From Dyella nitratireducens (lineage in GTDB: Bacteria; Pseudomonadota; Gammaproteobacteria; Xanthomonadales; Rhodanobacteraceae): DNA of 64,000 nucleotides. The notes beneath the pieces were generated by a model. It worked only from the letters and a program-made list of their open reading frames with translations, was not told the origin of the DNA and made no database searches. A program made the position numbers and the translations under genes. The stretch spans positions 2,142,943-2,206,942 of the forward strand of contig NZ_BMJA01000001.1 in the NCBI RefSeq assembly GCF_014642835.1, in the 5' to 3' direction. Within the stretch, counting starts at the first letter, position 1. Each line of letters begins with the position of its first letter. Below, piece after piece: positions 33,241 through 49,501 of this stretch.

Positions 33241-33753
33241 ATGTCTTCATCCATTTCCATCGCTGCGAACCGGCGCGGTTTGCTATGGGCCGTGCTTGGC
33301 GCGGTGGTGCTGCTATTGGTCGGCAGCGGGCTCTGGTATGCGCACACACGGATGAACGGCAAGGCAGACGAAGGCCATACGGCCAACGACGGCAGCGAAG
33401 TGGGCGTGATGCTGGATCTGGCCGACAAGGCGTACCAGGAAAAACGCCTAGTCGCGCCGGTCGGCAGCAATGTCTACGAGTTCTACTACAGTGTGCTGCA
33501 GCTCGATCCGAACAACGCGACGGCGCAGCGGCGGATGCGCGATGCGTTCAAGCCTGCCTGTGACGTGGTGGAAAACACCATCAACAGCGGCGACCTGGAT
33601 GAGGCGCAGCGCGAGCTTTCCCTGCTGCGCCAGTACGATCAGCACAACTACAAGCTTGCCCTGCTCGGCAGCGTGCTCGATGCGCAGCGTGTAATCGAGC
33701 GGCGCAAGCACGAAGCGGAAGCCGCGCGTATCCAGGCGCAGCAAGGACAGTAG
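33241..33753 (+). CDS. Membrane-anchored helical protein, stop codon inside a REP element
   Basis: The protein has 170 residues. One N-terminal membrane segment (RRGLLWAVLGAVVLLLVGSG) is followed by an external helical domain with TPR-like features (VYEFYYSVLQLDPNNATAQR; LDEAQRELSLLRQYDQHNYK) and a charged coiled tail. I do not recognise the family. The start MSSSISIAANRR was chosen for the anchor and an upstream AGGT. The frame extends 18 codons more. The TAG stop is part of the GTAG that begins REP doublet 2, so the native C-terminus may have been altered by the repeat. Confidence 0.72.
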   Translation: MSSSISIAANRRGLLWAVLGAVVLLLVGSGLWYAHTRMNGKADEGHTANDGSEVGVMLDLADKAYQEKRLVAPVGSNVYEFYYSVLQLDPNNATAQRRMRDAFKPACDVVENTINSGDLDEAQRELSLLRQYDQHNYKLALLGSVLDAQRVIERRKHEAEAARIQAQQGQ

Positions 33754-33823
33754 GTTGGGGTGCAAACCCCAACATTCTCATACACACATGCATCGCGATG
33801 TTGGGGTTTGCACCCCAACCTAC
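33750..33823. repeat. REP doublet 2 (GTAG...CTAC)
   Basis: Two inverted units, each with the 8-bp stem GTTGGGGT / ACCCCAAC and a 4-nt loop, are separated by about 25 nt. The leading GTAG contains the stop codon of the upstream gene. The trailing CTAC ends 2 bp before the stop codon of the convergent carbonic-anhydrase-like gene. Confidence 0.92.
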
Positions 33824-33824
33824 G

Positions 33825-34361
33825 TCAACCGCCGGCGAGATACGCGTCCTTCAAACGCACGTAGTGATCCGCTGAATAATGCAGCTGCTCGATCTGCTTG
33901 TCGGTCAGCATGCGCACGCACTTCGCGGGATTCCCCAGCCACAGCTCGCCCTCGCCCACCACCTTGCCCGGTGGCACCACGCTACCGGCGCCGACGAAGC
34001 CGTGCTTCTTGATCACCGCGCCATCCAGCACGATGGCGTGCATGCCGATCAGGCAGTAATCCTCGATGGTACAGGCATGGATCACCGCGGCATGGCCAAT
34101 GGTGACGCCTTCACCGATGACGGTGGGAAAGCCGCCCGGCGAATACGGACCGTCGTGCGTGACGTGCACGATGGTGCCGTCCTGGATATTGCTGCGCGCT
34201 CCAACGCGGATGTGATTCACATCACCGCGCAATACCGCGCCGGGCCAGATGGAAACATCATCACCCAGCACAACATCGCCGATGACCGTGGCGGCCGGGT
34301 CGACGTAGGTGCGGGCGCCGAGAGTAGGCAGGATGCCTTTGAAGGGACGTAAGGAATTCAT
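33825..34361 (-). CDS. Gamma-carbonic anhydrase family protein
   Basis: The protein has 178 residues built of left-handed beta-helix hexapeptide repeats (VIGDVVLGDDVSIWPGAVLR; VIGEGVTIGHAAVIHACTIE). Metal-ligand histidines are visible in VHVTHDG and GHAAVIHAC. The family is the YrdA/PaaY-like gamma class. Carbonic anhydrase activity is possible but many members are not proven enzymes. It is a single gene, convergent with the anchored protein across REP doublet 2, and starts 10 bp after the patatin gene ends on the same strand. Confidence 0.88.
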   Translation of the reverse strand: MNSLRPFKGILPTLGARTYVDPAATVIGDVVLGDDVSIWPGAVLRGDVNHIRVGARSNIQDGTIVHVTHDGPYSPGGFPTVIGEGVTIGHAAVIHACTIEDYCLIGMHAIVLDGAVIKKHGFVGAGSVVPPGKVVGEGELWLGNPAKCVRMLTDKQIEQLHYSADHYVRLKDAYLAGG

Positions 34362-34370
34362 TCGCGCATT

Positions 34371-36137
34371 TTAGCCTTCGAGCGAAAGCTGTGCCGTATC
34401 GCTTGCGGGTGACGGATTGCGCTCCTGCTCTTCCAGCACGCGCAGCGTTTCCTGATAGCCGGAATCGATCGCCAGCTGCCAATCGCGCCAGTCGAGCATG
34501 CCCACGTGCTCCAGCGGCGGTGTGATCAACAAGTCCGCCTGGTCGCGGCAGCGCTCGCTGGTCTCCTCGCTGTTCACCATCGCCGCGCGTGTCAGCGTGG
34601 ATACCAGCCGTGGCCAACCGACACCGCGTCGCTGGCGCAGCCACAGCCGCCACCACGGTGGCGTGGCGAACTCTTCGGTCTTGGCGCGTAGTTCGATGTC
34701 CGCGCGAATGCTTACCGCCGTGATGTGCGCGATACCGTCCTCTGCCATCACATCGGTGGGCAGGTTGTCGACCAGCGCGCCATCCACGTATACCTGCCCG
34801 TGATGCAGCACTGGCGGCAGAATGCCAGGAATCGAACTGCTCGCGCGCAGCCACAGCCACAGCGGCCCATGGCGATGCACCACCTTGCCCTGGCCGGAGA
34901 GATTGGTGGAGACGCAGAAAAACGGACGTTCCAGATCCTCGATGTCGATCGCGCCGAACGCGCGCCGCAGCATGATCGCCGCACGGCGTCCGCGCGTGAG
35001 CGCCACCAGCGGAACGGTCCAATCCGACAGCGGCTTGCCGCGCACGAAAGCCTCGTAATACACGCGCGTCATCTCCTCGATGCTCCACATGTTGGCGAGG
35101 CCCGCGCCGATGATGGCGCCGATGCTGGTGCCGCCGACGGCATCGAAATCATGGCCGGTTTCGCGCAAGGCGCGCAGGGCACCCAGATGCGCGAGACCGC
35201 GTGCACCGCCACCGGCCAGCACCAATCCGCGCGCATGACCGCTGATGAGGCGGGCGATGCGCGGAATATCGCCTTCGCCGCAGATGTGGTGATGATGAAT
35301 GTCACCACTGAATTGCCCGCGCCAGCGCCGTGCCGAACCCTGCAGCACGCGATGCGCGGGATGGATCAGTAACAGATGACGCGGCCGATGCCGCACGCGT
35401 GCCGGATGCCCCGGCGCAGCTTCCGGCCAAGGCTTGGCCGGCTGGGCCGCCAGCGCGGGCAGTAACAGCACGTCTGCCTGGCGCAGGCAGCGCAGGCGCC
35501 AGGAAGGATCGCCCGTGCTGTCCAGATAGATCACGAAGCGCACTTGCGCTTCGCGCTCGGCGAACCAGTCGCTGCCGCGGTTGGCGCCGTGTTCGGCATC
35601 GATCACCACGCAGTTGCCGAATTTTTCCAAGGCCTGCGCAAGCTGCATGGCCAAGCCGCGCACCGGCACCGTTTCGTCGACCGGCAAAATCGCGAAGGTG
35701 CGCGGTTTGTCCGGCGGTTCCACATGGCGTTCACGGCGGATCAGCCGATCCACCGCCTGCCGCGCCATGCCCATCATGGCGCGTGGATGGTGTTCGATCA
35801 GTTGTTCGAAATGCTGGTGATCCAGGCGCAGCAGCTCGCAATCCCGCAACGCACGCACGTTGTAGCGCAGCGCCTCGCCGCCCAGCAGGCTGATTTCACC
35901 GACACAGTCGTCCGCCGCCACTTGCCGAATCAGATCGGTGGACCCATCGAACACGCCCAGGCTGCCGCTGCGCAACAAATACAGTGCATCGGCCACTTCG
36001 CCGGCCCGGTACAGGTACTGGCCGCCAGGCAAGCAAATCCAGTGCAGGTAGCCGGCCAATGCCGCCCGTTGTGCATCCGTCAGATGCGAAAACAGCGGGA
36101 TTCGACCAATGAGGGCAGGGATGTCGGCGGGTAGCAT
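34371..36137 (-). CDS. Patatin-like phospholipase with cyclic nucleotide-binding domain
   Basis: The protein has 588 residues with an architecture like neuropathy target esterase and RssA. An N-terminal cNMP-binding domain (about 15-130: LPGGQYLYRAGEVADALYLL; VGEISLLGGEALRYNVRALR) precedes a linker. The C-terminal patatin domain has oxyanion loop GGGARGLAHLG, nucleophile GTSIG and catalytic DGA (VYVDGALVDNLP). It probably hydrolyses lysophospholipids or other acyl esters at the membrane. The start MLPADIPALIGRIPLF was chosen on domain edges. The frame runs 35 codons further. It is divergent from oligopeptidase A. Confidence 0.9.
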   Translation of the reverse strand: MLPADIPALIGRIPLFSHLTDAQRAALAGYLHWICLPGGQYLYRAGEVADALYLLRSGSLGVFDGSTDLIRQVAADDCVGEISLLGGEALRYNVRALRDCELLRLDHQHFEQLIEHHPRAMMGMARQAVDRLIRRERHVEPPDKPRTFAILPVDETVPVRGLAMQLAQALEKFGNCVVIDAEHGANRGSDWFAEREAQVRFVIYLDSTGDPSWRLRCLRQADVLLLPALAAQPAKPWPEAAPGHPARVRHRPRHLLLIHPAHRVLQGSARRWRGQFSGDIHHHHICGEGDIPRIARLISGHARGLVLAGGGARGLAHLGALRALRETGHDFDAVGGTSIGAIIGAGLANMWSIEEMTRVYYEAFVRGKPLSDWTVPLVALTRGRRAAIMLRRAFGAIDIEDLERPFFCVSTNLSGQGKVVHRHGPLWLWLRASSSIPGILPPVLHHGQVYVDGALVDNLPTDVMAEDGIAHITAVSIRADIELRAKTEEFATPPWWRLWLRQRRGVGWPRLVSTLTRAAMVNSEETSERCRDQADLLITPPLEHVGMLDWRDWQLAIDSGYQETLRVLEEQERNPSPASDTAQLSLEG

Positions 36138-36240
36138 GCGCGCGATGGTACGACGGCCGCGATGACATCGTATGCGGTTCATCCGGCTTGATTTCAGCCC
36201 GTCCCGCCAGCACCCTTCGAGGCCTGTAAGGAGCGAAACC

Positions 36241-38298
36241 ATGAGTCAAGACAATCCCCTGCTGGCCGACAGCACACTCCCCGCGTTCTCCCAGATCCAG
36301 CCCGAGCACGTGCTGCCCGCGGTCGAAACCTTGCTGGCCGACAGCCGCGCCGGCATTGCTGCGCTGACGGCGCCTGGTGCACTGCACGACTTCAAATCCG
36401 TGATGCTGCCGCAGGAGCGTTTCGACCAGCGCATTGCACATGCTTGGTCACCCGTTTCCCATCTGCACTCGGTAGCCGACAGCGAAGCCCTGCGCAAGGT
36501 CTACGGCCCGGCCGAAGAAATGCTCACCGACTACTCGATCGAAGTCGGGCAGAACCGTGATCTCTATGCTGCCGTGCAAGCGGTGGCCGATGCTCCGGAC
36601 TTTGCGAAACTCTCCCGTGCACAACGCGCCTTGGTCGACCATGCGCTGCGTGATTTCAAACTCTCCGGCGTGGCGCTCGAAGAACCGGCACGCTCGCGCT
36701 TCCGCGATATCGGCGTGGAACTGTCCAAGCTCTCCACCGAATTCTCCAACGCCGTGCTCGACGCCACCGATGCATGGCAGGAACACATCACCGACGAGCG
36801 AGATCTGGCTGGTATTCCCGAATCGGGTCGCGCCGTGCTGCGCCAGTACGCCAAGGAAAAAGGCCTGGAAGGCTATCTGGTCACGCTCAAGCAACCGAGC
36901 GTGCAAGCGGTGATGACCTACGCCGACAATCGCGGCCTGCGCGAACGTGTGTACTGGGCTTATCAGACGCGCGCTTCCGATCAAGGACCGCACGCAGGCA
37001 AGTACGACAACAGCGCACGCATCGACAAGATCATGGCCCTGCGCCATGAAGCGGCTCAATTGCTCGGCTTTGCCAATGCGGCGGAGGAATCGCTTGCCAC
37101 CAAGATGGCTGGCGCACCGGATGAAGTACTGGCTTTCCTGCGCGACCTGGCTTCGCGCGCCAAGCCGGTAGCGCAGAAAGAACTCGCCACGCTGCGCGAC
37201 TTCGCCGCCGAGGACCTCAAGATCGACAACCTCGAATCCTGGGACGTCGCCTACGCGGCAGAAAAACTGCGGCAGAAGCAGTACGCCCTGGATGAGGAAC
37301 AGCTCAAGCCGTACTTCCCCTTGCCGGCGGTGATCGACGGCTTGTTCGGCCTGGTGCAAAAGCTTTATGGCATCACGCTGAAACCGCGTGACGGCATCGA
37401 CGTGTGGCATCCCGATGTGCGGTATTACGACGTCGTGGATGCCGACGGACATATCTTTGCAGGCGCCTACATTGATCTTTACGCACGCAGCGGCAAACGT
37501 GGCGGTGCGTGGATGGATGTATGCCGTGCACGCTTCGACGACGGCACGCATCTGGAATTGCCGGTGGCGTTCCTTACCTGCAACTTCGCACCGCCAACGG
37601 AGGGCCGCCCTGCGCTGCTCACTCATGATGATGTGCTGACGCTGTTCCATGAATTCGGCCACGGTTTCCATCATCTATTGACGGAAGTGCCGCTGCCTTC
37701 CGTCGGCGGCATCGACGGCGTGGAGTGGGATGCGGTGGAACTGCCCAGCCAGTTCATGGAGAACTTCGGCTGGAACCGCGAAGCGCTGGATATGTTCGCC
37801 AAACACTGGGAAACCGGTGAGCGCCTGCCGGATGAACTGTTCGAGCGCATGCTGGCAGCACGGCACTTTCATGCCGGCTTGTTCCTGGTGCGGCAGCTTG
37901 AATTCGCCCTGTTCGATTTCCTGCTGCATCTGCAATACGACGCGGCCAAGGGTGCACGCACGCTCGAAGTGCTGGAGCAGGCACGCCACGAGGTTGCCGT
38001 GTTGCACCCTCCGGCCTGGCAACGCTTCCCGCACGCCTTTACCCACATCTTTGCAGGAGGCTACGCGGCGGGTTACTACAGCTACCTGTGGGCGGAACTG
38101 CTGAGCGCGGACGCGTTCGGGGCCTTTGAGGAACACGCGCGCGACGGGCAAAGCGTGATCGACCCGGCCACCGGGGAACGCTTCCGCCGTGAAATCCTGG
38201 CCGTGGGTGCAAGCCGGCCTGCGATCGAGAGCTTTATCGCGTTCCGGGGCCGCAAGCCGGAACCGGAGGCGTTGCTGCGCAGTCACGGCCTTGCCTGA
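36241..38298 (+). CDS. prlC: Oligopeptidase A (M3 family)
   Basis: This cytoplasmic zinc metallopeptidase degrades short peptides, including cleaved signal peptides. The protein has 685 residues. The zinc site is LTLFHEFGHGFHHLLTEV (HExxH), with the downstream Glu in FMENFGWNREAL. The C-terminus has HIFAGGYAAGYYSYLWAELL, typical of the family. The start is preceded by AAGGAG. The frame opens 23 codons earlier without a good Shine-Dalgarno. It is divergent from the patatin gene. Confidence 0.96.
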   Translation: MSQDNPLLADSTLPAFSQIQPEHVLPAVETLLADSRAGIAALTAPGALHDFKSVMLPQERFDQRIAHAWSPVSHLHSVADSEALRKVYGPAEEMLTDYSIEVGQNRDLYAAVQAVADAPDFAKLSRAQRALVDHALRDFKLSGVALEEPARSRFRDIGVELSKLSTEFSNAVLDATDAWQEHITDERDLAGIPESGRAVLRQYAKEKGLEGYLVTLKQPSVQAVMTYADNRGLRERVYWAYQTRASDQGPHAGKYDNSARIDKIMALRHEAAQLLGFANAAEESLATKMAGAPDEVLAFLRDLASRAKPVAQKELATLRDFAAEDLKIDNLESWDVAYAAEKLRQKQYALDEEQLKPYFPLPAVIDGLFGLVQKLYGITLKPRDGIDVWHPDVRYYDVVDADGHIFAGAYIDLYARSGKRGGAWMDVCRARFDDGTHLELPVAFLTCNFAPPTEGRPALLTHDDVLTLFHEFGHGFHHLLTEVPLPSVGGIDGVEWDAVELPSQFMENFGWNREALDMFAKHWETGERLPDELFERMLAARHFHAGLFLVRQLEFALFDFLLHLQYDAAKGARTLEVLEQARHEVAVLHPPAWQRFPHAFTHIFAGGYAAGYYSYLWAELLSADAFGAFEEHARDGQSVIDPATGERFRREILAVGASRPAIESFIAFRGRKPEPEALLRSHGLA

Positions 38299-38305
38299 GC
38301 CGCTT

Positions 38306-38334
38306 ATGCCCCTCTCTCATCGGGAGAGGGGCAT
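38306..38334 (+). terminator. Hairpin after oligopeptidase A
   Basis: A perfect 11-bp stem (ATGCCCCTCTC / GAGAGGGGCAT) begins 8 bp after the stop codon. There is no T-run. Confidence 0.55.
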
Positions 38335-38468
38335 GATCCGCAAGTTCCATGGTTCCTCTCGCACTGATCGGGCCAACAGGTTCACAATGCCTCGACCCCG
38401 CCCTATACCACCATCGGCGGCGCAAACTGGTATCGAATCGATAGCGCTCTGGACTTGAGGACTCTGCG

Positions 38469-39347
38469 ATGAACGCGATCACACACTTGGCGCCCGAATG
38501 GCACAACTGGATTCAGGAAAATCTCTCGCGCGGCTGTGCCCCGCAATCGCTGATCGACGACATGGTGCGTAACCATTTCGATCCGGTGTTCGCGCGCGCC
38601 GCGGTCAACGGCATCATGAGTGGCCCCTTTGTCGCCACCGCCAAGCCGCCACCGCAAACCCAGTCTTCGAACGGCTACGTCTATGAAAGGCCGCGACTTT
38701 ACGCCGGTAATTTGATCCGCACTTCTGATCGCGATGTACGTGTGGTCACGCGTGTGAATCGTCCGATGATCGCTGTGCTCGACGGCGTGTTGAGCGAAGA
38801 GGAGTGCGACGAACTTATCCGCCGCTCGGCCGACAAGATGCGCCGCTCCACCACGGTCGACCCATTGACCGGCAAGCATGAAGTCATCGCCGATCGCAGC
38901 AGCGAAGGCACTTTCTTCACTCTCAACGCCGATCCATTCATCGCACGACTCGACCGCCGCATTTCCGAAGTGATGAACTGGCCGGTCGAAAACGGCGAGG
39001 GCCTGCAGATCCTGCACTACGGCGTCGGCGGCGAGTACAAACCGCACTTCGATTACTTTCCACCGGAAGACCCCGGCAGCCAGGTGCAGATGACCATCGG
39101 CGGCCAGCGCGTCTCCACCATGGTGATGTATTTGAACGAAGTGGAAGAAGGCGGTACCACCATCTTTCCCGATATCGGCCTGGAAGTGGTGCCGAAAAAG
39201 GGTTCGGCCGTCTATTTCGAATACACCAACAGCCAGAACCAGCTCGATCGCCTGACACTACACGGTGGCTCGCCGGTGACGCGCGGCGAAAAATGGATCG
39301 TGACGAAGTGGATGCGGCAACGGCGTTATGGCGAGGCCGCAGCGTAA
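38469..39347 (+). CDS. 2OG-Fe(II) oxygenase, prolyl 4-hydroxylase-like
   Basis: The protein has 292 residues. The C-terminal two-thirds form a P4H-type double-stranded beta helix. Iron ligands appear in YKPHFDYF (His-x-Asp) and the distal His in LTLHGGSPVTRGEKWIVTKW, whose Lys would bind 2-oxoglutarate. The N-terminal segment (about 1-60) is helical. The predicted reaction is proline 4-hydroxylation of a protein or peptide with 2-oxoglutarate and oxygen. The substrate is unknown. A terminator follows about 50 bp downstream. Confidence 0.9.
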   Translation: MNAITHLAPEWHNWIQENLSRGCAPQSLIDDMVRNHFDPVFARAAVNGIMSGPFVATAKPPPQTQSSNGYVYERPRLYAGNLIRTSDRDVRVVTRVNRPMIAVLDGVLSEEECDELIRRSADKMRRSTTVDPLTGKHEVIADRSSEGTFFTLNADPFIARLDRRISEVMNWPVENGEGLQILHYGVGGEYKPHFDYFPPEDPGSQVQMTIGGQRVSTMVMYLNEVEEGGTTIFPDIGLEVVPKKGSAVYFEYTNSQNQLDRLTLHGGSPVTRGEKWIVTKWMRQRRYGEAAA

Positions 39348-39683
39348 TCGCAAAAACGCGCCATCTGATTTCAGGGTTTGACTAGCTATTTGCTTCGGCG
39401 TCTTTATGGAGACGCCGTCTTTTGCCTGCTGCCCAAAGCATGGCATAGGGCGACCTTCGTCACGTTCTGGTACAGGTGGATTGCCGTGCCCGTAGACAAC
39501 GTTGTCATTCCAGGCCGATACTGCCGCCGCACCTTTCTCGGGCACCACACCCGACATGCTGTGAGGGGCAGGGCTGCGTTTTTTGCCCGGCGGATGATCC
39601 ATGCGGCTGCGTGGAACGCAGTCGTCATGCCGCCAACGCGATTCACTTGTTGCAAATCCCTTCCATGTTTTTGGAGACGGCTC
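39348..39683. other. Intergenic region before the chitin-binding protein, with a terminator at 39396-39424
   Basis: A rho-independent terminator lies near the left end: stem CGGCGTCT / AGACGCCG and a T-rich tail, ending the P4H transcript. The rest could be read as an N-terminal extension of the next gene, but it encodes Cys/Arg-rich sequence with no signal peptide and is better seen as leader. The start chosen for the next gene has TTTTTGGAGACGG before it. No other gene is apparent. Confidence 0.7.
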
Positions 39684-41243
39684 ATGCACGTGAAAAAGTC
39701 AGTGACGCGATCTACTTTGACATCAGGCACGTTGAGCACCGCCGTGGGTGCAGCTTTATCGGCAAGCTTGCTCACGATGGCACCCACGCAAGTTGCGCAT
39801 GCCCAGTCCGCTTGCGCACCTGCATGGAGTGCAACGGCGATTTACACGGCTGGCAACGTCGCCAGCGAGAGCGGCATCAATTACCAGGCAAATTGGTGGA
39901 CGCAGGGCAACGATCCGGCGACCAACAATGGTGGCGCAGGTAGCGGTCAACCATGGACGTCGCAAGGTGCATGCAGTGCCTCGCCCACGCCAACTCCCAC
40001 CCCTACACCCACGCCAACTCCTACCCCCACACCAACACCAACACCAACACCAACACCAACACCAACACCAACACCAACACCATCTCCGTCATCGGTCACT
40101 ACGTCAGGTAACGTCGATTTCCATTTGTTGCTTGGTATAGGCAGTTCGCAAGACCAGATCGCGTTGGCGGGCGATAACTACACCGACCTGATCATGTCCA
40201 ACATCATCGCTGGCGTGATGTATGGGCATCTGGTGCAGGAGTACTACCCAGGTATCCAGTTCGACAAGGACTATTTATACGGCTCGATCATGGGTCAGCT
40301 GCTGCAGGAAAACATTGCCACCGAGTATTACGTGGATACCGGTAGCCTGATCGATCCGTCACCCGATCAGCAAGCAGTGATGGGCGTAGGCCAAGGTGGT
40401 CCGTACCAGATCAACAACTATGCCGCCGATATGGTGTCCGGGTCGTATACCCCGTCAGGTCATGCGCTGATCAACTACGTCACGATCCAGAAGAACATCG
40501 GCTACACCATGGCTACGGCGCCCACGCAATACAGCAAACCAACACCGGCGTCGTTCAACAACAAGTACTACGGGCCGATGTTGACGGCGTATTTCCATTA
40601 CAACGACTTCGTCGCACTGAACGTGACCGGCAAAGGACCTGGGGGTTGGCAAACACCGTGGGAGCCGGCGTACGACAACGCGCTGGCGAACTTCAAAACC
40701 TTGCCGGACAATTTCCTGGATGTGTTGCTGAACGTGGCTTACAACCAGGGCTACTACGGTGGACTGGTGCAAAGCTATAGCAGCCTGGGTGCAACAGCGA
40801 CCTCGGCCACCGTAACGCAGGTGAACGCCTATGGTTCGGTGTGGGGCGTGAACGATACCTACAAGCAATATCCCTATCAGGTTCGCTACTACCTGGATCA
40901 GCTCTACGACAATCCGATTCCGACCACCAGTTTGTCGACCGTCGTTACCCCCAGCAATCACGTCGCGTTCAATATCGCAGCGTTGGAAAACGTGTTCTCC
41001 AACGTGTTCCAGACGCTGGATTACGTCAACAGCTCAGGTACCGGCACCTACATCACGGCAACGCAGGCCTCGACGGCCTTCAATACGGCGCTCACTCAAA
41101 CAGGCGTTTCGAGCACCGGTACGCTGGATCTGAGCAGCGCATCGGATCGTGCGCAAATCTTCAACTTGCTGGAGCATGCGATCAGCAATCTGGAGACCAA
41201 CGTAGGCACGCAATTCAACGCCACTACCAACGATCAATTGTAG
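39684..41243 (+). CDS. Secreted protein: chitin-binding module, Pro-Thr linker, unassigned domain
   Basis: The protein has 519 residues. A signal peptide (cleavage near VAHAQ) leads into a CBM5/12-type chitin-binding module (APAWSATAIYTAGNVASESG; NYQANWWTQGNDPATNNG; PWTSQGAC). A (Pro-Thr)16 linker follows, and then a domain of about 370 residues that I cannot assign. This domain has LYGSIMGQLLQENIATEYY and AVMGVGQGGPYQINNYA. These resemble the catalytic Glu helix and the Gly-rich QIN turn of lysozyme-like glycosidases, but this is inference. It probably attacks or binds chitin or a related polymer. A strong hairpin follows the gene. Confidence 0.75.
   Translation: MHVKKSVTRSTLTSGTLSTAVGAALSASLLTMAPTQVAHAQSACAPAWSATAIYTAGNVASESGINYQANWWTQGNDPATNNGGAGSGQPWTSQGACSASPTPTPTPTPTPTPTPTPTPTPTPTPTPTPTPTPSPSSVTTSGNVDFHLLLGIGSSQDQIALAGDNYTDLIMSNIIAGVMYGHLVQEYYPGIQFDKDYLYGSIMGQLLQENIATEYYVDTGSLIDPSPDQQAVMGVGQGGPYQINNYAADMVSGSYTPSGHALINYVTIQKNIGYTMATAPTQYSKPTPASFNNKYYGPMLTAYFHYNDFVALNVTGKGPGGWQTPWEPAYDNALANFKTLPDNFLDVLLNVAYNQGYYGGLVQSYSSLGATATSATVTQVNAYGSVWGVNDTYKQYPYQVRYYLDQLYDNPIPTTSLSTVVTPSNHVAFNIAALENVFSNVFQTLDYVNSSGTGTYITATQASTAFNTALTQTGVSSTGTLDLSSASDRAQIFNLLEHAISNLETNVGTQFNATTNDQL
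39984..40082 (+). repeat. Tandem hexanucleotide repeat encoding the (Pro-Thr)16 linker
   Basis: The first eight units use mixed codons (CCC ACG, CCA ACT and so on). The next eight are identical CCAACA. Because the unit is six bases, slippage would lengthen or shorten the linker in frame and not switch the gene off. Confidence 0.9.
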
Positions 41244-41255
41244 GTCTTGCATAGC

Positions 41256-41287
41256 ATGAAGCCCTTCGAGGATGCGAAGGGCTTCAT
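41256..41287 (+). terminator. 13-bp hairpin between the chitin-binding protein and fbp
   Basis: The stem ATGAAGCCCTTCG / CGAAGGGCTTCAT is perfect with a 6-nt loop. It lies between two convergent genes and may terminate both, although T-runs are poor. Confidence 0.65.
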
Positions 41288-41300
41288 GATTCAAAGCGAG

Positions 41301-42317
41301 TTAGTTCCGCGCTCCATCGGCTTCGAGATGGTAGTGCGTGGCAACCTCGACCTCTTTCTTTGAACCTAGGAACACCGGCACGCGCTGATGCAAACCCGTC
41401 GGTTGTAGCTCGAGAATGCGTTCACGGCCGGTGGTGGCTGCACCACCCGCTTGCTCGATGATCAAGGCCATCGGGTTGGCCTCGTACATCAGGCGCAGCT
41501 TGCCGCCTTTGCTCTTGATCTTCGCATCCAGCGGATAGAAGAACACGCCGCCACGGGTGATGATGCGGTGCACGTCGGCCACCATCGAGGCCACCCAGCG
41601 CATGTTGAAATCCCTGCCGCGCGGACCGTCCTTGCCGGCCAGCAGTTCGCCGATATAACGCTGCATCGGCGGTTCCCAGTGACGCTGGTTCGACATGTTG
41701 ATGGCGAATTCGCCGGTTTCCTCCGGGATGCGGATATCACGGCGGCTGAGGGTGAAGCTGCCTACTTCGCGATCCAGCGTGAACTCGTGCGTGCCGTGGC
41801 CGAACGTCAACACCAGCACGGTGGCGGGGCCATACACCACATAGCCGGCCGCGAGCTGCGTCGTGCCGGGTTGCAGGAAGTGCTCCGCCTTCGGTTCGCT
41901 CACACCATCTGGGCAGCGCAGCACGGAGAAGATGGTGCCGACGGAAATGTTCACGTCGATGTTCGAGCTGCCATCCAGCGGATCGAACAGCAGTAGGTGA
42001 TTGCCCTTCGGATACATGTCGGGAATCGGCTGCGGATCTTCCATTTCCTCCGACGCGCAGGCGGCGAGCTGGCCACCCCAGGCGTTGGCTTCAAGCAGGA
42101 TCTCGTTGGAGATCACATCCAGCTTCTTCTGCGCCTCGCCCTGGATGTTGCCGGTGCCCGCCTCGCCCAGCACACCCCCGATGGCGCCCTTGTTGGTGGC
42201 GACCGCGATGCGCTTGCAGGCGCGTGCGACCACTTCGATCAGCAAGGTGAGCTCGGCGTTGATATGGCCGGCGCGGCGTTCTTCGATCAGAAACTGGATC
42301 AGCGAGATGGGCTTCAT
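41301..42317 (-). CDS. fbp: Fructose-1,6-bisphosphatase, class 1
   Basis: The enzyme removes the 1-phosphate from fructose 1,6-bisphosphate in gluconeogenesis. At 338 residues it has the usual length. The metal/phosphate signature is [20 protein letters not shown]. The active-site region near the C-terminus reads [20 protein letters not shown]. The start [15 protein letters not shown] is clear. It is a monocistronic minus-strand gene between two plus-strand units. Confidence 0.97.
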
Positions 42318-42456
42318 GGCGAACCTGCTGGAAAAGGGCCTGCCATTGTCCCGGCTCAGCCTTACATAAGCCAGTCGAGAGCCTGAATCCCTCGCCAGCG
42401 TTAGGCGGTCATTCCTGCAGAACCGACTTTTTCAATAGTGACGCCCGCCCAGATGG

Positions 42457-42476
42457 ATTCCCGCTTTCGTGGGAAT
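42457..42476. repeat. Small intergenic hairpin upstream of fbp
   Basis: The arms ATTCCC and GGGAAT flank an 8-nt loop (GCTTTCGT). The flanking bases resemble a dispersed intergenic repeat, but only one copy is seen in this window. Confidence 0.35.
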
Positions 42477-42555
42477 GACGAAAGTGGAGGGCTGCTGACA
42501 ACACGCTGGCAGTAGCAGGGGCGCAAGCTCTCATCATCGAAAAGGAGGGACGATC

Positions 42556-43176
42556 ATGCGCGACACGATTTATGTGCTGGTATTCGAAGGGTTTGCGGAT
42601 TGGCAGATAGCGCTGGCCCTGGCTGAAATCCGCCGCCCAGGCGACTGGGAAGTGCGCAGTGCCGGCTTCACGCGCGAGCCGGTGACATCGATGAGCGGGT
42701 TCACGGTGATGCCCGATGTAAGCGTGGATGAGCTTGATCTGGATGCCGTTGCGCTGCTGATGCTGCCAGGCGGTCATCTATGGTTATCCACGCAGCTGGA
42801 GCGGATGGCGTCCGTAGCACGCCGCGTGCACGCAGCAGGTGCACCGGTTGCTGCCATCGATCAAGGCGTGCTGGCGGTGGCGCGCGCCGGTTTGCTCGAC
42901 CATTGCCGTCACACCGGCAACTGGCCGGGACAGATCGGCCGCGAAGTGGCGGCGTATGCGGGACATGATCAATACGACGCCAACGTACTCGCCGTCAGCG
43001 ATGGTGGCGTGATCACAGCCAGCCATCTGGGCAACATCGAATTCGCGCGGGAAATCATCCACACGCTGGACTTGTACAACGCCAGCGATCGCGACCACTG
43101 GTATCGCTTGTTCAAACATGCCGTGCCGCCGCCGTGGTTTAGCGGCGAAACGATTGAAGTAGTCCGTGCTGCATAA
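42556..43176 (+). CDS. DJ-1/PfpI family protein lacking the nucleophile cysteine
   Basis: The protein has 206 residues with the glutamine-amidotransferase-like fold: VLVFEGFADWQIALALAEIR, then LLMLPGGHLW, then the elbow AAIDQGVLAVARAGLLD, and later TGNWPGQIG. Active members of the family have Cys at the elbow (AICxG). Here Asp occupies that position, so hydrolase or glyoxalase activity by the usual mechanism is unlikely. It begins a plus-strand run with a small protein, a GFA protein and a GST. Confidence 0.82.
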   Translation: MRDTIYVLVFEGFADWQIALALAEIRRPGDWEVRSAGFTREPVTSMSGFTVMPDVSVDELDLDAVALLMLPGGHLWLSTQLERMASVARRVHAAGAPVAAIDQGVLAVARAGLLDHCRHTGNWPGQIGREVAAYAGHDQYDANVLAVSDGGVITASHLGNIEFAREIIHTLDLYNASDRDHWYRLFKHAVPPPWFSGETIEVVRAA

Positions 43177-43188
43177 GGTACCTACATC

Positions 43189-43440
43189 ATGAGTAACTTT
43201 ATCGATCGCGTTTTAGCAGCCTATCGGCCGTTGTATCTGCGGGGTTTGCTGATGGATGGCCAATATCGACTCCCTGCCAGGCAGGAAAAAGCGAAACCGG
43301 AAAAAGGCAATCGAGTCGTGCAGTTGACACCAGCGTTCGATCCAGGGCGCAAGCGAGTACTGGTCATGCCTGCTGCCGCGGGTGTCAGTCTGCGCATGCG
43401 ATCGAAAGACGAACCGTCGGGCGGCTTGAGCGGCGCATAA
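43189..43440 (+). CDS. Small basic hypothetical protein
   Basis: The protein has 83 residues ([20 protein letters not shown] at the start). It is rich in Lys, Arg and Pro, with no signal peptide or membrane segment. It lies 12 bp after the DJ-1-like gene and 22 bp before the GFA gene, so cotranscription is likely. AAGGT precedes the start. I do not recognise the family. Confidence 0.55.
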
Positions 43441-43462
43441 CCCCATCACCCAGGAATTCATC

Positions 43463-43867
43463 ATGCAAAAGACCTATCACGGCAGTTGTCATTGCGGCGC
43501 AGTAACGTTCGAAGCCGACATCGATCTCACGCAGGGCACGGGGCGCTGTAATTGCTCCATCTGCACCAAGGCGCGGCAATGGGGTGTGATGGTGAAGCCG
43601 GATGCGTTCCGGCTCATCCGCGGGGAGAGTGAACTTTCCGACTACCAGTTCGGCACCCACAGCATGCATCACCTGTTCTGCAAGCACTGCGGCATCAGGC
43701 CATTCGGCAAAGGCCATCTGGATGTGCTCGGTGGTGACTTCTACTTCGTCAATGTGTTCTGTCTGGACGATGCCGAGCCTGCGGCGTTGATCGAAGGCCC
43801 GCTGCATTTTTCCGATGGGCGCAACAACAACTGGCAAAACGTGCCGGCGGAAACGCGGCATCTATAA
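43463..43867 (+). CDS. GFA family zinc protein
   Basis: The protein has 134 residues with the glutathione-dependent formaldehyde-activating (GFA/Mss4-like) fold. Zinc-binding cysteines are visible in [20 protein letters not shown] and [12 protein letters not shown]. Members were named for formaldehyde-glutathione adduct formation, but most have unknown substrates. It is 9 bp before a GST gene, which supports a thiol or aldehyde detoxification role. Confidence 0.9.
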
Positions 43868-43876
43868 GGTGACGAC

Positions 43877-44503
43877 ATGAACCGCAAGATCACTTTCTAT
43901 CACGCACCCAATAGCCGCTCGGGCGGCACGTTTGCGTTGCTCGAGGAACTGAGTGCGGACTACGAACTACACCTGGTAAATCTCAAGGCCGGCGAATCGC
44001 GCCGGCCGGACTACCGGGCGATCAATCCGATGGGCAAGGTGCCGGCGATCCGGCATGGCGAAGTGTTGATCACCGAACAGCCAGCGATATTCATGTATCT
44101 GGCAGATCTGTATGCGGAAGCGGGGCTGGCTCCGGCCATCGGCGATCCGCTGCGTGGCGCTTACCTGCGTTGGCTGGTTTTCTACGGTTCGTGTTTTGAG
44201 CCGGCGCTGGTTGATCGCTCGCTCAACCGCGAGCCGGCACCGCCATCCAAGTCGCCGTATGGCAGCTGGGAAGACGTTATCAACACGCTGCAGCTGCAAC
44301 TTGCCAAGGGACCCTACATGCTTGGCGAGCGCTTCACCGCGGCAGACGTGCTGTGGGGCGGCGCCTTGCACTGGGCCACCTTGTTCAAGCTGGTGCCGGA
44401 AACGCCGCAGATCAGCGCGTACATCGATCGCGTGATCACACGTCCCGCCATGCAGCGTGTAGCGGCCAGGGATGCTGATTATCTCGCGCAGCAGGCTGCG
44501 TGA
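43877..44503 (+). CDS. Glutathione S-transferase family protein
   Basis: The protein has 208 residues. The N-terminal thioredoxin fold is MNRKITFYHAPNSRSGGTFALLEE, with the glutathione-site motif NPMGKVPAIRHGEVLITEQP. The C-terminal helical domain includes MLGERFTAADVLWGGALHW. The Ser in SRSGG is a candidate for activating glutathione. It is the last gene of the DJ-1-like/GFA/GST run. The following regulator gene starts after 121 bp. Confidence 0.9.
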   Translation: MNRKITFYHAPNSRSGGTFALLEELSADYELHLVNLKAGESRRPDYRAINPMGKVPAIRHGEVLITEQPAIFMYLADLYAEAGLAPAIGDPLRGAYLRWLVFYGSCFEPALVDRSLNREPAPPSKSPYGSWEDVINTLQLQLAKGPYMLGERFTAADVLWGGALHWATLFKLVPETPQISAYIDRVITRPAMQRVAARDADYLAQQAA

Positions 44504-44624
44504 GATGGTCGATGGCGACGGGTATGTTTCCATTCGTCTCGCATAACAGGGTCTCACACAGTGCGACGACCCTGCATGACTTCGGACGCTGGTCCGTAAC
44601 CTCAACCTGGGCGATCATGCACGG

Positions 44625-45329
44625 ATGCGTCGTGCCGATCGCCTCTTCCTCATCATCAACGCCCTGCGCGGTCGACGTACCGCGTTGCAGGCGCGCCAGC
44701 TCGCGGAAATGCTGGGGGTATCGCTGCGCACGGTTTATCGCGATGTGGCGGACCTCCAGCTCTCGGGCGTACCGATCGAAGGCGAAGCCGGCGTCGGCTA
44801 CATGCTGCGCAAGGGCTCGGACATCCCGCCGCTGATGTTCACTGCCGAAGAGCTCGAATCGCTGGTGGTCGGCACACGCTTCGTCCGCGCGTTCGCGGGC
44901 GAGAAACTGGCTGCCGGTGCACAAGCTGCGCTGATGAAGATCGAGGCGGTATTGCCACCGGAACTGCGCGAGCGTTCCTCACGCACGCGCATCTACGCGC
45001 CGATCTGGCGCGACGAGCATTCCACTGCCTTCGCCGAACGTATCGACAAGCTGCATGCGGCGATCGAAGCGCAGCACGTCTTGCGGCTGTTCTATAAAGA
45101 CGAGGTGGGTCGCGACAGCGAACGTGATGTGGAACCGCTGTGCCTGGCGTTCTGGGGCGGCAAGTGGACACTCGGTACCTGGTGCCGGCTGCGCAAGGAT
45201 TTCCGCAACTTCCGCCCGGACCGCATCGAACGGATGGAGAACACCGGTGAGGTGTTCCAGAGTGCGCCGGATCGCGACCTGGGTTCCTACCTGCAGGCCA
45301 TGCGCGGCTATTTCTCCGGATTGGAGTAG
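44625..45329 (+). CDS. YafY-type HTH and WYL-domain regulator, stop codon inside a REP element
   Basis: The protein has 234 residues. The N-terminal helix-turn-helix is RADRLFLIINALRGRRTALQ, then LAEMLGVSLRTVYRDVADLQ. The C-terminal WYL-type domain spans about 135-215 (LRLFYKDEVGRDSERDVEPL; WTLGTWCRLRKDFRNFRPDR). The ligand is unknown. It may control the adjacent detoxification-type genes. Its TAG stop is the TAG of the GTAG that begins REP doublet 3. Confidence 0.9.
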   Translation: MRRADRLFLIINALRGRRTALQARQLAEMLGVSLRTVYRDVADLQLSGVPIEGEAGVGYMLRKGSDIPPLMFTAEELESLVVGTRFVRAFAGEKLAAGAQAALMKIEAVLPPELRERSSRTRIYAPIWRDEHSTAFAERIDKLHAAIEAQHVLRLFYKDEVGRDSERDVEPLCLAFWGGKWTLGTWCRLRKDFRNFRPDRIERMENTGEVFQSAPDRDLGSYLQAMRGYFSGLE

Positions 45330-45399
45330 GTTGGGGTGTGAACCCCAACATGACGATACCGATCGACATGGCGATGTTGGAGTTTGCACTCCAACCTAC
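45326..45399. repeat. REP doublet 3 with a compensated stem change
   Basis: The left unit is GTTGGGGT-GTGA-ACCCCAAC. The right unit is GTTGGAGT-TTGC-ACTCCAAC, in which a G-C pair of the consensus stem has become A-T on both sides. GTAG and CTAC flank the whole. The doublet begins in the stop codon of the WYL regulator. Confidence 0.92.
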
Positions 45400-45465
45400 A
45401 AACCCACCCACGCTGCCGCTCTTACGCTACCCTGCGCCAACCAGGGCTATTGCAGGAGTCACCCC

Positions 45466-46080
45466 ATGTCGTCAGGCGTGCGTCATCCTCTGTTGTCGAT
45501 TGCGCCGGCCAAGCTGCGCCCTACCCAAATGACGGTGGGCAAGGCTGAAGTGGCCGAGAAACGCGCGCAGTGGGAAAAGCTCGGCAAAAAGAAGCGCAAA
45601 GAGCTGCTTGCCGCGCACTGGTTTCCCGGCGTGCTGGGGCCGAAGCACCAGGTTTATATCGTCGACCATCATCACCTTGGCCTCGCGCTGTGCGAGGAAG
45701 GCGTCAAGGAAGTGCCGGTGATGATCCAGCGCGACTTTTCCTGGCTGGACCAGGACGTGTTCTGGCGCACCATGGAGTTCAACCGCTGGGCGCATCCGTA
45801 CAACGAACATGGCCAGCGGCAGGAATACGACGCGATTCCGCGCAACCTCACCGATCTGGCTGATGATCCCTATCGCACCCTGGCTGCACGCGTGCGCACC
45901 GCGGGTGGCTACGCCAAGGACGCCACACCTTATTCGGAATTCCTGTGGGCGGAGTTCTACCGGCGCAACCTCAAGCTCAAGGGCGATCGCGTCACGCCCA
46001 AACTGCTGCAGGACGCCATGCTGCTCGCCCACTCGCATGAAACGGCCTACCTGCCCGGCTGGAGCGGACAGATCCAATGA
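45466..46080 (+). CDS. ParB-like nuclease domain protein
   Basis: The protein has 204 residues and matches the putative ParB-like (ParBc_2) group: KLRPTQMTVGKAEVAEKRAQ, then VYIVDHHHLGLALCEEGVKE with the His-rich motif. It lacks the helix-turn-helix of chromosome-partitioning ParB, and its function is unknown. AGGAG precedes the start. The stop overlaps the SulP start as ATGA, which suggests translational coupling. Confidence 0.82.
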   Translation: MSSGVRHPLLSIAPAKLRPTQMTVGKAEVAEKRAQWEKLGKKKRKELLAAHWFPGVLGPKHQVYIVDHHHLGLALCEEGVKEVPVMIQRDFSWLDQDVFWRTMEFNRWAHPYNEHGQRQEYDAIPRNLTDLADDPYRTLAARVRTAGGYAKDATPYSEFLWAEFYRRNLKLKGDRVTPKLLQDAMLLAHSHETAYLPGWSGQIQ

Positions 46081-47726
46081 GCGGCGCAGCCGCCTCGTCG
46101 GCACGTATCGCTGACGTGCTGGCCGGCTTGGGGATAGCAGGTTTGCTGCTGCCCGAAGCTGTTGCCTACTCAGGCATCGCCGGCATGCCGCCGCAGGCTG
46201 GTGTGGTGGCGTTGTTCGTTGGCTTGGTTTGCTATGGGCTGCTGGGCACCAGCCGTTTCGCGATTGTGTCGTCCACATCGTCCTCCGCGGCGGTACTGGC
46301 AGCAGGCACTCTTTTGCTGGCCGGCGGCGGGGCCAATCGCGCGGCCGTTGCCGCCACGCTCGTGCTGTTGGGCGGCGGTTGTTTTCTGATTGCAGGCGCG
46401 GCGCGCCTGGGTGGGCTTTCGCACCTCATCGCGCGTCCGGTGTTGCGCGGCTATACCTTTGGATTGGCGATCGTCATTGCACTCAAGCAGTTGCCACACC
46501 TGGGCGGCTGGCCGGATCTGCACGGCGATTTCGTGCCTTTGCTGGTCGCGGATCTGGTTCGCACCTCCGGACAAGTCCATGCGCTGACCTTGCTTACCGG
46601 TGTGCTGGCCTTGTTGCTGTTGTACGTATGCGAGCGCTTGCGCCGCTTGCCGGGCAGCCTGCTGGTGATCGCGCTCGGCGTGGCCGCATCCAGTTGGCTG
46701 GCGGCGCGCGGTGTGCCGCTCACCGGCGCCATCCGGCTGCAGATGAGCATCGGCATGCCCGTGTGGCCATCCAGCGGCCAATGGCTGCCGAGCGTGGAAC
46801 TGGCCGCGGCGTTGCTGTTGATCCTGTATGCCGAGTCATATAGCTCGATCCGCGGCTTTGCGTTGAAACATGACGACCCGGTAACGCCGAATCGCGACCT
46901 GCTGGTGCTGGGCGTGGCGAACGTGTTGAGCGGCTTGTTCCAAGGCATGCCGGTGGGTGCCGGCTATTCCGGCACCTCTGCCAATGAGGCGGCAGGTGCG
47001 CAATCGCGGCTTGCCGGCCTGATTGCCGCGGCCACCGTGCTGCTGATGGTGTTGCTGCTGTTGCGCTGGATCGAACGTATTCCGCTTGCCGTGCTGGCTG
47101 CGATCGTAATTCACGCCGTGAGCAAATCATGGCGTTTGTCGGTATTTCGCCCGTATCTGCAGTGGAAGCGGGATCGTCTGCTGGCGCTCGCCGCGGTGAT
47201 CGCGGTGTTGTCGGTGGGCATCCTCAATGGCCTGCTGTTCGCCATCGCCTTCAGCCTGATTCTGCTGCTGCGCCAGCTCGCTTCGGCGCGTGTCAGCGTG
47301 CTCGGCCGTCTCGCCGGCAGTCACGACTTCGTGGATATCGCGCAGCACCCTAATGCAGTGCAACCGCCAAGCATGCTTATTTTGCGTCCGGAAGAGCCAT
47401 TGTTCTTCGCTAACGCCGAGGCTGTGATGGTATTGGCGCGCAAGCAAGTAGAAGCGCATAGCGCCGCAAAACAGGTGGTGCTGAGCCTGGAAGCGTCGCC
47501 CGATCTGGACAGCACCGCGCTCGAATCGCTCGGCGATTTTTCAGGCTGGCTACAGGCACGCGGCGTTGGCCTGCGCGTGGCACGTGTGAAAGATGAGACA
47601 CGCGCTTTGCTGCTGCGCGCCGCCCTGCCCCAGCTTTCGTCACAGGCACTGGATAGCTGGAGCGTGGAAGATGCCGTGTCGGCCGCCATGGCCGCCATGT
47701 CTTCAACAGGGAATCACGCGCAGTGA
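46077..47726 (+). CDS. SulP family anion transporter with STAS domain
   Basis: The protein has 549 residues. About 11-12 membrane segments are followed by a cytoplasmic STAS domain from about residue 430 (SMLILRPEEPLFFANAEAVM; VVLSLEASPDLDSTALESLG). The SulP signature region appears as LLLPEAVAYSGIAGMPPQAG. The substrate could be sulfate, bicarbonate or a dicarboxylate and cannot be told from the sequence. It is coupled to the ParB-like gene upstream and the DUF885 gene downstream by short overlaps. Confidence 0.9.
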   Translation: MSGAAASSARIADVLAGLGIAGLLLPEAVAYSGIAGMPPQAGVVALFVGLVCYGLLGTSRFAIVSSTSSSAAVLAAGTLLLAGGGANRAAVAATLVLLGGGCFLIAGAARLGGLSHLIARPVLRGYTFGLAIVIALKQLPHLGGWPDLHGDFVPLLVADLVRTSGQVHALTLLTGVLALLLLYVCERLRRLPGSLLVIALGVAASSWLAARGVPLTGAIRLQMSIGMPVWPSSGQWLPSVELAAALLLILYAESYSSIRGFALKHDDPVTPNRDLLVLGVANVLSGLFQGMPVGAGYSGTSANEAAGAQSRLAGLIAAATVLLMVLLLLRWIERIPLAVLAAIVIHAVSKSWRLSVFRPYLQWKRDRLLALAAVIAVLSVGILNGLLFAIAFSLILLLRQLASARVSVLGRLAGSHDFVDIAQHPNAVQPPSMLILRPEEPLFFANAEAVMVLARKQVEAHSAAKQVVLSLEASPDLDSTALESLGDFSGWLQARGVGLRVARVKDETRALLLRAALPQLSSQALDSWSVEDAVSAAMAAMSSTGNHAQ

Positions 47727-49501
47727 AACACGCTACACGCATCGGGTGCCTGGTCGCAGGCTTGCTGCTGACCATGCCGGCCTTCGCGCAGCAACAAAGT
47801 GCGGACGCACGCTTCAAGCAGCTTTACGAACAGGAATGGGCGTGGCGTACCGGGCAGGCGGGCGTGAGCGCTTCCGGCGAAGCCCAGCCGAACAACGGCC
47901 GTCTCGACCAGGTCGATGCGAAGCGTCAGCAGGAACGGCTCGATAATTGGCAAAAGATCATGAGCCGGTTGGATGCGATCAATCCCAAGGAGCTTTCGCC
48001 GGCGCAACAGGTGAACTACGCGATTTATCGCGAGCAGATCCGCAACTTCATCGCCGACCAGCAATTCAAGCAATGGCAGATGCCGTTCAATAGCGACTCC
48101 GCGTTCTGGAGCGAACTTGACGGCGACCTCGGTGCCGATTCGCTGCATAACGAAACGGACTATCGCCGTTATGTGGATCGCTTGGGCCAGGTGCCCGCGT
48201 ATTTTGACCAGGAAATCGCCAATATGCGGGCGGGCCTGAAGCGCGGTTTCAGCGTGCCCAAGGCGGTGCTGGCAGGGCGTGATATTTCCATCGCCGCCGT
48301 CGCTGATGTGAAAGACCCTACGCAGACCTCGTTTTACGAGCCGCTGCAACACATGCCGTCGAGCATTCCGATGGTAACGGCGGCGGCCATCCAGGCCGAC
48401 GCGCGCGAGAAGATCAACCGCGATGTCATTCCCGCTTACCAAAAGCTGCTCGCCTTCTTCCGCACCGAATACGTGCTGCAAGCGCGCACCACGTTGGCTG
48501 CGGAAGCCTTGCCCGATGGCAAGGACTATTACCGCCAACAGATCCGCGAATACACCACGCTCGATCTGGACCCCGACACCATCCACAAGATTGGCCTGGA
48601 GCAGGTGGATAAAATCCATGCCCAGATGCTCGACGTCATGCATGAAACCGGCTTCAAAGGCAGCTTCGCCGACTTTCTGCATTTCTTGCGCACCGATCCG
48701 CAGTTCTACGCCAAGACTCCGGAGGATCTGCTCGACAAGACCGCATGGGTGACGAAGGAAGTCGACGGCCAACTCGGCAAATTCTTCGGTCACTTGCCGC
48801 GTGCACGCTTTGCCATCGAACCGGTGCCGGATGCGATCGCGCCGTATTACACCTCCGGCCGCGGCGGTCCGGATGTCTATCTGGTCAACACCTACGACCT
48901 ACCCTCGCGCCCGCTCTACAACATGCCGGCGCTCACCTTGCACGAGTCATATCCCGGCCATGCGCTGCAACTGGAACTGGCTGAAGAGCAGCACGATCAA
49001 CCCGCGTTCCGCCGCAACAGCTACATCTCCGCCTATGGCGAGGGCTGGGCGCTGTATTCGGAATTTCTAGGCAACGAAATGGGCATCTACAAGACGCCCT
49101 ACCAGCGCTTCGGCTACCTGACCTACCAGATGTGGCGTGCATGCCGCCTGGTGGTCGACACCGGCATCCATCACCTCGGCTGGACGCGCCAGCAAGCGAT
49201 TGACTACATGACCGAGAACACGGCGCTTTCCGATCGCGAAATCGCCAATGAGGTCGACCGCTACATCAGCTGGCCCGGGCAGGCGCTGTCGTACGAGCTG
49301 GGTTATCTGAAGATTCTCGATTTGCGGGCAAAAGCCGAGAAGGCGCTGGGGCCGAAGTTCGACCTGCGTGCCTTCCACGACACGGTGCTCTCCATCGGTT
49401 CGGTACCGTTGCCGGTACTGGAGCAGCGGGTCGACCGGTTTATTGCCGAGGGTGGCCCGGAGCCGGACTACGGTTGCGACTGCGTCAAGCATTCGCCGTA
49501 G
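47723..49501 (+). CDS. DUF885 family exported metallopeptidase-like protein, stop codon inside a REP element
   Basis: The protein has 592 residues. A signal peptide (cleavage near FAQQ) precedes a helical DUF885 domain. The likely zinc site is TLHESYPGHALQLELAEE (HExxxH type), with YGEGWALYSEFLGNEMG further on. The family is thought to contain peptidases, but substrates are unknown. The GTG start overlaps the SulP stop (GTGA), and AGGGAA lies upstream. The TAG stop is the TAG of the GTAG that begins REP doublet 4. The tail PDYGCDCVKHSP has two Cys close together. Confidence 0.88.
   Translation: MKHATRIGCLVAGLLLTMPAFAQQQSADARFKQLYEQEWAWRTGQAGVSASGEAQPNNGRLDQVDAKRQQERLDNWQKIMSRLDAINPKELSPAQQVNYAIYREQIRNFIADQQFKQWQMPFNSDSAFWSELDGDLGADSLHNETDYRRYVDRLGQVPAYFDQEIANMRAGLKRGFSVPKAVLAGRDISIAAVADVKDPTQTSFYEPLQHMPSSIPMVTAAAIQADAREKINRDVIPAYQKLLAFFRTEYVLQARTTLAAEALPDGKDYYRQQIREYTTLDLDPDTIHKIGLEQVDKIHAQMLDVMHETGFKGSFADFLHFLRTDPQFYAKTPEDLLDKTAWVTKEVDGQLGKFFGHLPRARFAIEPVPDAIAPYYTSGRGGPDVYLVNTYDLPSRPLYNMPALTLHESYPGHALQLELAEEQHDQPAFRRNSYISAYGEGWALYSEFLGNEMGIYKTPYQRFGYLTYQMWRACRLVVDTGIHHLGWTRQQAIDYMTENTALSDREIANEVDRYISWPGQALSYELGYLKILDLRAKAEKALGPKFDLRAFHDTVLSIGSVPLPVLEQRVDRFIAEGGPEPDYGCDCVKHSP

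Follow-up and report, generated by a model that had tools for sequence, protein, structure and literature searches.

Three genes in the 64,000 nucleotides of Dyella nitratireducens DNA analysed here (the window) end at positions 33753, 45329 and 49501 with a TAG that is also bases 2-4 of the GTAG head of a REP doublet. How does a repeat come to supply the stop codon of a gene? The initial annotation offered two answers: either the elements prefer to insert at existing stop codons, or they inserted within genes and now end the reading frames early, altering the C-termini. Its premise stands. All three overlaps (3/3) are as described, and most other genes of the window do not end in TAG: of 57 genes called with a codon model, 7 end in TAG, the three included, and the other 50 in TGA or TAA.

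The observation itself is not new, since the extract of Di Nocera et al. (2013; PMC3733652) used here states that GTAG REP termini often supply TAG to flanking ORFs and that REPs lie near 3' ends. What we propose is a route, in which the TAG is imported with the element, the native stop is lost and the outcome is filtered by reading frame. No account of the mechanism of REP-stop overlap was found announced in the titles or abstract openings of the papers that our searches listed.

REP doublets in the window and in the genome

A search with the 24-base REP pattern, allowing up to three mismatches, gives 11 matches in the window (two of them the same palindromes on the opposite strand) and none in 100 shuffles. 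The window holds five doublets of one family, each consisting of GTAGGTTGGGGTGCAAACCCCAAC, a spacer of about 26 nt and an inverted copy with a CTAC end. The same search of the whole 5.68-Mb genome returns 324 and 325 matches on the two strands, that is, a dispersed repeat of high copy number.

The first of the stop-bearing doublets, two inverted 24-nt REPs with their GTAG heads outward, occupies 33750..33823 and is predicted to fold as one long hairpin (fold z -10.1). Its left-head TAG (33751..33753, + strand) is the stop of gene 33187-33753, as judged from the positions of ORF and doublet, and a convergent gene (33825..34361, - strand) has its TGA 1 nt before the right head. Writing d for the number of gene bases within the element, a head-TAG stop has d=4 and the convergent gene d=-1. 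In the second doublet (45326..45399; fold z -5.8) the right REP has paired stem changes; by the same positional evidence the head TAG (45327..45329, + strand) ends gene 44625-45329. That of the third (49498..49570; fold z -10.0), at 49499..49501 (+ strand), ends gene 47723-49501. All three fold far better than shuffles. The doublet at 15029..15098, recovered by the REP pattern search, has a partly decayed left REP and begins 1 nt after the stop of a gene with GST domains, 14341-15027 (TAA, C, GTAG). The fifth (52335..52408) lies between convergent genes 51648-52313 (d=-21) and 52426-53814 (d=-17). Head TAG thus accounts for 3 of the 8 gene 3' ends in the window that face a doublet.

Genome counts come from the window together with 60 stretches of 20 kb, in all 1.264 Mb or 22% of the 5.68 Mb; 46 of the 60 were picked for exact REP matches and 14 are unselected neighbours, so that intact elements are over-represented. 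This sample contains 137 doublets, 74 bp long in 66 cases and 73 bp in 33. GTAG forms 257 of their 274 heads, the stem is GTTGGGG..CCCCAAC, and conservation is lower in the middle 26 nt than at the ends. An inverted doublet with a spacer of near-fixed length is a mark of REPINs; a GTAG 5' of a short palindrome and a high, dispersed copy number are those of the GTAG REP superfamily. Where both neighbouring genes were called (134 doublets), these are convergent in 59 cases, in the same direction in 68 and divergent in 7.

The superfamily, as the extract of PMC3733652 portrays it, shares with the present elements the GTAG head, short palindrome, high copy number and head-outward dimers, the position between convergent or same-direction genes near 3' ends, and the supply of TAG. 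That extract holds no stop-overlap count, orthologue test or mechanism, and it reports intragenic REPs in other species, whereas none of our 137 doublets lies inside a called gene. The REPINs of P. fluorescens SBW25, in the passages of PMC3116915 drawn on here, likewise have two conserved inverted ends, a less conserved spacer of near-fixed length and a RAYT in the genome, and the doublet is argued there to be the mobile unit (Bertels and Rainey 2011). They differ in hairpin sequence; moreover, the sole RAYT above cut-off in D. nitratireducens (locus L126) is flanked by GTAGGTTGGGTTA, not by the window family.

Immediately 5' of GTAG, 190 of 272 ends (136 D. nitratireducens doublets with flanks) carry a C and 55 a T; this holds on both sides, and the elements read Y[GTAG..CTAC]R. 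At several gene-end sites this base equals the codon base of the orthologue, which hints at a target preference. A search for target-site duplications around the 136 doublets (direct-repeat lengths 1-5, 28 k-counts) revealed no pattern. According to the part of Corneloup et al. (2021; PMC8266576) consulted, cleavage occurs at CT or CA, GTAG helps to choose the site, and the mechanism of dissemination is called open. REPs nested within REPs occur in D. choica (cho1, loci L127-L136 joined) at 14454 (+ strand) and at offset 191384 on the minus strand; in both, the second REP begins GTAGG directly after the ..CAATC of the older hairpin, at the identical spot. A comparable nest with a REP of the D. 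nitratireducens type is present at D. acidisoli locus L213.

Gene ends and reading frames at the GTAG head

The sample comprises 1058 genes from a codon-usage caller, not curated (stops: TGA 617, TAA 232, TAG 209). Its doublets face 189 gene 3' ends, and 50 of these stop at the head TAG, with a single end at d=1 and another, reading past the head, at d=5. Of the other ends, 52 fall 0-9 nt before the head (about 5 per position), 29 at 10-19 nt and 56 farther away. Relative to the mean density at 0-9 nt, the Poisson probability of 50 or more is about 1e-31. This figure and the shuffles rule out chance as the origin of the stop pile-up and of the REP matches in the window. The caller score exceeds 30 for 44 of the 50 genes, and at four sites both convergent genes end at heads. 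The initial annotation had made its case depend on an enrichment of stop overlap across the genome, and such an enrichment is found in the 22% sampled. For the main REP family and for related REPs of two sister species, the overlap is real, strong and general.

The reading frame through the element is highly asymmetric. Translation in the frame of the head stops within two codons in 129 of the 137 doublets, compared with 4 and 1 in the other frames, where the median doublet is free of stops throughout its length and for another 60 nt. Gene ends in these two frames are nearly absent. Among elements 0-14 nt after a native stop, the frame that brings TAG in line is depleted (22/93, one-sided p=0.028); at 15-60 nt there is no depletion (26/77). 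The depletion at short distance is faintly suggestive of the loss of redundant native stops.

The explanation that we consider best for the head-TAG gene ends, and hold to be probably right, is stop capture. A REPIN-type doublet with GTAG heads facing outward at both ends, presumably inserted by a RAYT transposase, would land in or beside the 3' end of a gene and import its GTAG. The gene's own stop would then be absent, either because the element split the last codons or because a small deletion, presumably after the insertion rather than with it, took the native stop and a short spacer. A ribosome running into the head would meet an immediate TAG in one frame, and in the other two it would mostly translate the whole 74-bp element and continue past it. 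Tolerance would be largely restricted to the TAG frame, selection presumably having removed the others, and gene ends would accumulate at bases 2-4 of the head. Besides the pile-up, stop capture draws on the rarity of GTAG in REP-free orthologues, on shifted C-termini and on two doublets seen both with and without the native stop, all described below.

The heads might instead be kept for a function, in that a hairpin touching the stop codon would slow release and lower expression, by analogy with E. coli REPs. The relevant part of PMC12306157 describes the E. coli effect, and RepRanger (2025), the same source, cites ribosome stalling by E. coli REPs up to 15 nt from stops. In both organisms a hairpin adjoins the stop codon; here, a head lies at the stop or no more than 15 nt from it in 120 of the 189 facing ends, and the firm folding of the three window doublets is in line with such a role. 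However, the E. coli elements are described there by their distance from the stop, whereas in D. nitratireducens the REP head is the stop, and a spike at exactly one nucleotide calls for a reason of reading frame, not of distance. The host proteins of the window are unrelated (a 188-aa protein without a match, an HTH_11/WYL protein and a DUF885 protein), so a common function is not the explanation. We regard this reading as very improbable.

Orthologues and the origin of the stop codon

Did the TAG exist before the element? For 80 head-TAG ends from D. nitratireducens, D. choica and D. flagellata, 33 have a REP-free orthologue in the sequence covered, 3 have REP-bearing ones only and 44 have none; matches below 60% identity or 70% coverage were left out beforehand, as were L031-L033 and L038, which duplicate longer stretches. 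The comparison set 29 sites against 49 controls (head 0-49 nt after the stop), with each REP-free orthologue counted once and REP-like heads nearby excluded; the REP flag is loose, so some truly REP-free orthologues were dropped from the counts. A GTAG stands at the stop of the closest REP-free orthologue for 1 of 29 sites and 2 of 49 controls. When all REP-free orthologues are pooled, the figures are 11/215 and 6/179. The head TAG was therefore probably imported by the element. This is what became of the proposal to look for an existing stop or GTAG-like target at the site before insertion, and the idea that existing GTAG stops serve as targets finds no support in it.

The C-terminus of the closest REP-free orthologue differs in 17/29 cases versus 8/49 controls (Fisher p=1.7e-4); among REP-free genes, 80 of 591 C-termini differ. 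Of the two original options, in-gene insertion with altered C-termini is thus the nearer. Its early-ending part fits less well, since the shifts are mostly small (-5 to +4 residues), go in both directions and are zero in 12 of 29.

A variant of target preference deserves separate mention: a transposase would insert the doublet 3' of an existing GTAG, so that TAG stops preceded by G would serve as targets and the proteins would remain unchanged. In a half version, one head would be the target and the other imported. IS608 inserts 3' of its own tetranucleotide. In the part of PMC3116915 cited, some 6 bp from the right end remained after excision of P. fluorescens doublets, as such a model might have it. 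GTAG motifs near REP-free gene ends of D. nitratireducens (38 at the stop, 24 at 0-9 nt and 62 at 10-49 nt) also resemble the element positions (50:52:55), which counts against stop capture. On the other hand, REP-free genes ending in GTAG retain it in the closest orthologue in 6 of 27 cases, so about 6 would be expected among the 29 if GTAG had pre-existed and 1 is seen (p=0.006, an optimistic value, as the 22% retention was measured on 27 genes, and the 29 orthologues include some more distantly related than these). The half version predicts about 3 of 29, with which the 1 observed is compatible, the relatives being about 88-90% identical at best. The 17 differing C-termini also speak against an unchanged protein. 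Insertion at a pre-existing GTAG therefore seems unlikely to us. No clean recent insertion with an exact empty site was seen, the closest species pair being about 88-90% identical.

Direct support for stop capture comes from two doublets whose far side is shared with a sister species retaining the native stop; as judged by alignment, these are well-supported examples of native-stop loss. In the gene ending ..VRAQ, D. flagellata reads CAA TGA CGGCGC[GTAG..CTAC]GAATCAGG and D. nitratireducens CA[GTAG..CTAC]GAGTCAGG. The far junction is the same (CTAC-GAATCAGG and CTAC-GAGTCAGG), and of this pair only D. flagellata keeps the native stop. In D. choica the native stop is lost as well, but out of frame, and translation continues past the head as far as a hairpin TGA; this goes against stop capture. 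At the D. choica orthologue of L113:9164 (cho1), the hairpin GTAGGCTGGGATGACAATCCC has a second stop, TGA, in another frame, and the gene uses it. In the gene ending ..RVGA, D. nitratireducens has GCG TGA GCCTTC before [GTAG.., while D. choica has GC directly before it; on the far side both species join at the same codon, with a two-base difference between the far junctions. The REP-free loci L174 and L176 (G013, G015) read GCG TAA GCCTTACG here and have the start of the lost spacer in common, so the spacer is ancestral. In both examples the element lies 3' of an intact native stop in one sister, hence capture by stop loss rather than a stop created by mere insertion within the gene.

The same two doublets bear on a simpler proposal, namely that insertion is random and that doublets in the last codons survive only when the head TAG is in frame, with no later deletion. 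Truncations of 1-16 residues (9/33 focal genes) and the absence of doublets within called genes (0/137) accord with it. So does the L087 site, where 12 of 12 relatives are 2-29 residues longer; cases of this kind have the appearance of simple insertions within the final codons. Yet a far side shared with a sister that keeps its native stop is not what it predicts, and at L084 and L086, where both convergent genes stop at heads, REP-free relatives keep both native stops and the spacer, so that sequence loss is required. Nor does simple insertion account for the focal protein being longer than a relative, as in 9/33, a count that also tells against stop capture. As the general explanation, insertion without deletion is thus quite improbable.

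Several other sites were inspected. The convergent pair at L087:7213-7287 (D. nitratireducens C1:1227212) and its orthologues carry REPs with different junctions in the D. nitratireducens/D. choica lineage and in G008 (L175), and the insertions seem independent in the two. The pair ..DEE/..RVGA of D. nitratireducens and G008 was considered as one element captured from opposite sides; the alignment gives different junctions, and G008 was treated as independent. At ..EVVT, ..LYRxxPRA, ..VERVG and ..ADT, d differs between species and the far junctions match too poorly for one insertion. A looser hairpin finder, which makes false REP calls in distant relatives, served for inspection and contributed to no count.

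The proteins of the three window genes compare unequally with their orthologues, and gross truncation can be ruled out for 33753 and 45329 from the orthologue ends. Gene 33187..33753 (+ strand; started at 33292 by our own caller) encodes 188 aa ending QQGQ, with no Pfam or NCBIfam match. Eight of nine orthologues are 1-12 aa longer (D. choica 1, L037 2, L041 2, L036 6, L040 6, L034 9, D. mobilis 12), and the ninth, that of D. flagellata, also meets a REP at this codon; it and the D. nitratireducens protein both end QQGQ at heads, with different hairpins. In D. acidisoli the protein is 2 residues longer and the DNA reads AAC TAG ATC, followed by a decayed REP and nearly the same far flank. Gene 33753 was thus probably captured and slightly shortened, with the loss of about two codons, although the case rests on that decayed REP and its far junction differs by 1 nt. 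Gene 44625..45329 (+ strand) encodes an HTH_11/WYL protein by Pfam, probably a transcription regulator, ending GLE. The 11 nearest loci, L031-L041, without exception place their stop (TAA, TAG or TGA) at this codon, so the aligned protein is complete, contrary to early ending; GAG TAG in D. nitratireducens corresponds to GAA TAA in D. flagellata and D. choica, the nearest relatives without a REP. For the DUF885 gene (47723..49501, + strand; Pfam), the C-terminus varies among relatives, from 11 residues shorter in D. flagellata, itself stopped at a REP head, to 10 longer.

Sister species, RAYT genes and the meaning of stop capture

Head-TAG ends number 13 in 400 kb of D. choica and 9 in 305 kb of D. 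flagellata, mostly with other hairpin sequences. D. acidisoli (200 kb) has none among 6 ends within 49 nt, which counts against stop capture. The commonest hairpins of these three species are of the GTAGGCTGGGATGNCAATCCCAGC type. The G012 stretch contains no such REP, and D. mobilis has 3. A second D. nitratireducens family, GTAGGTTGGGTTA (25 heads in the sample), has a head TAG at 2 of its 17 ends and is read through once, at d=14. This too goes against stop capture, and the demonstration of the spike is therefore confined to the main family and REPs related to it and does not cover all GTAG families.

At some sites (..IERAFVEK, ..KELVDARL, ..QGEVLL and ..RIQAQQGQ), at least two of D. nitratireducens, D. 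choica, D. flagellata and D. acidisoli have a head TAG at the same codon with different hairpins. Viewed from the first three species, the codon is common to 18 of 58 species pairs at head-TAG ends and to 6 of 67 at ends 0-14 nt away (p=0.003), pairs that are not independent and represent 6 versus 3 or 4 distinct sites. Either one hairpin replaced another at the same position or these sites received elements more than once.

A RAYT gene is present in the genome (L126:1345-1887, - strand; C2 near 428753), matching NF047646 with 197 bits against a cut-off of 80. Doublets of a different family, GTAGGTTGGGTTAGC, lie on either side of it, the flanking REPs belonging to the GTAGGTTGGGTTA family. Its stop codon is the TAG of the adjoining REP head, the arrangement that capture would produce; in the excerpt of Nunvar et al. 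(2010; PMC2817692) considered, REPs lie immediately 3' of rayt stop codons. A second RAYT-like transposase, L125:1351-2061 (+ strand), scores below the cut-off (57.5 bits versus 80), and no GTAG-headed hairpin occurs in the 3.2 kb covered at that locus. REPs of the window type are absent from the 3.2-3.3 kb covered at either L125 or L126.

It is possible, if doubtful, that GTAG repeats in compact genomes generally undergo stop capture and do not return from it. The head would act as a portable stop at both ends of the element, and deletions would pull gene ends towards it. A captured element could not be deleted without loss of the stop codon, a parasite locked in by termination. Should stop capture itself hold, a repeat counted as extragenic would have fixed the ends of a measurable share of proteins, and GTAG, a recognition and guide motif of the transposase in the part of PMC8266576 cited, would double as a built-in stop. 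It would provide a simple test of how long REPs are retained and why they crowd at 3' ends, and annotators would be warned that C-termini beside such repeats may be recent.
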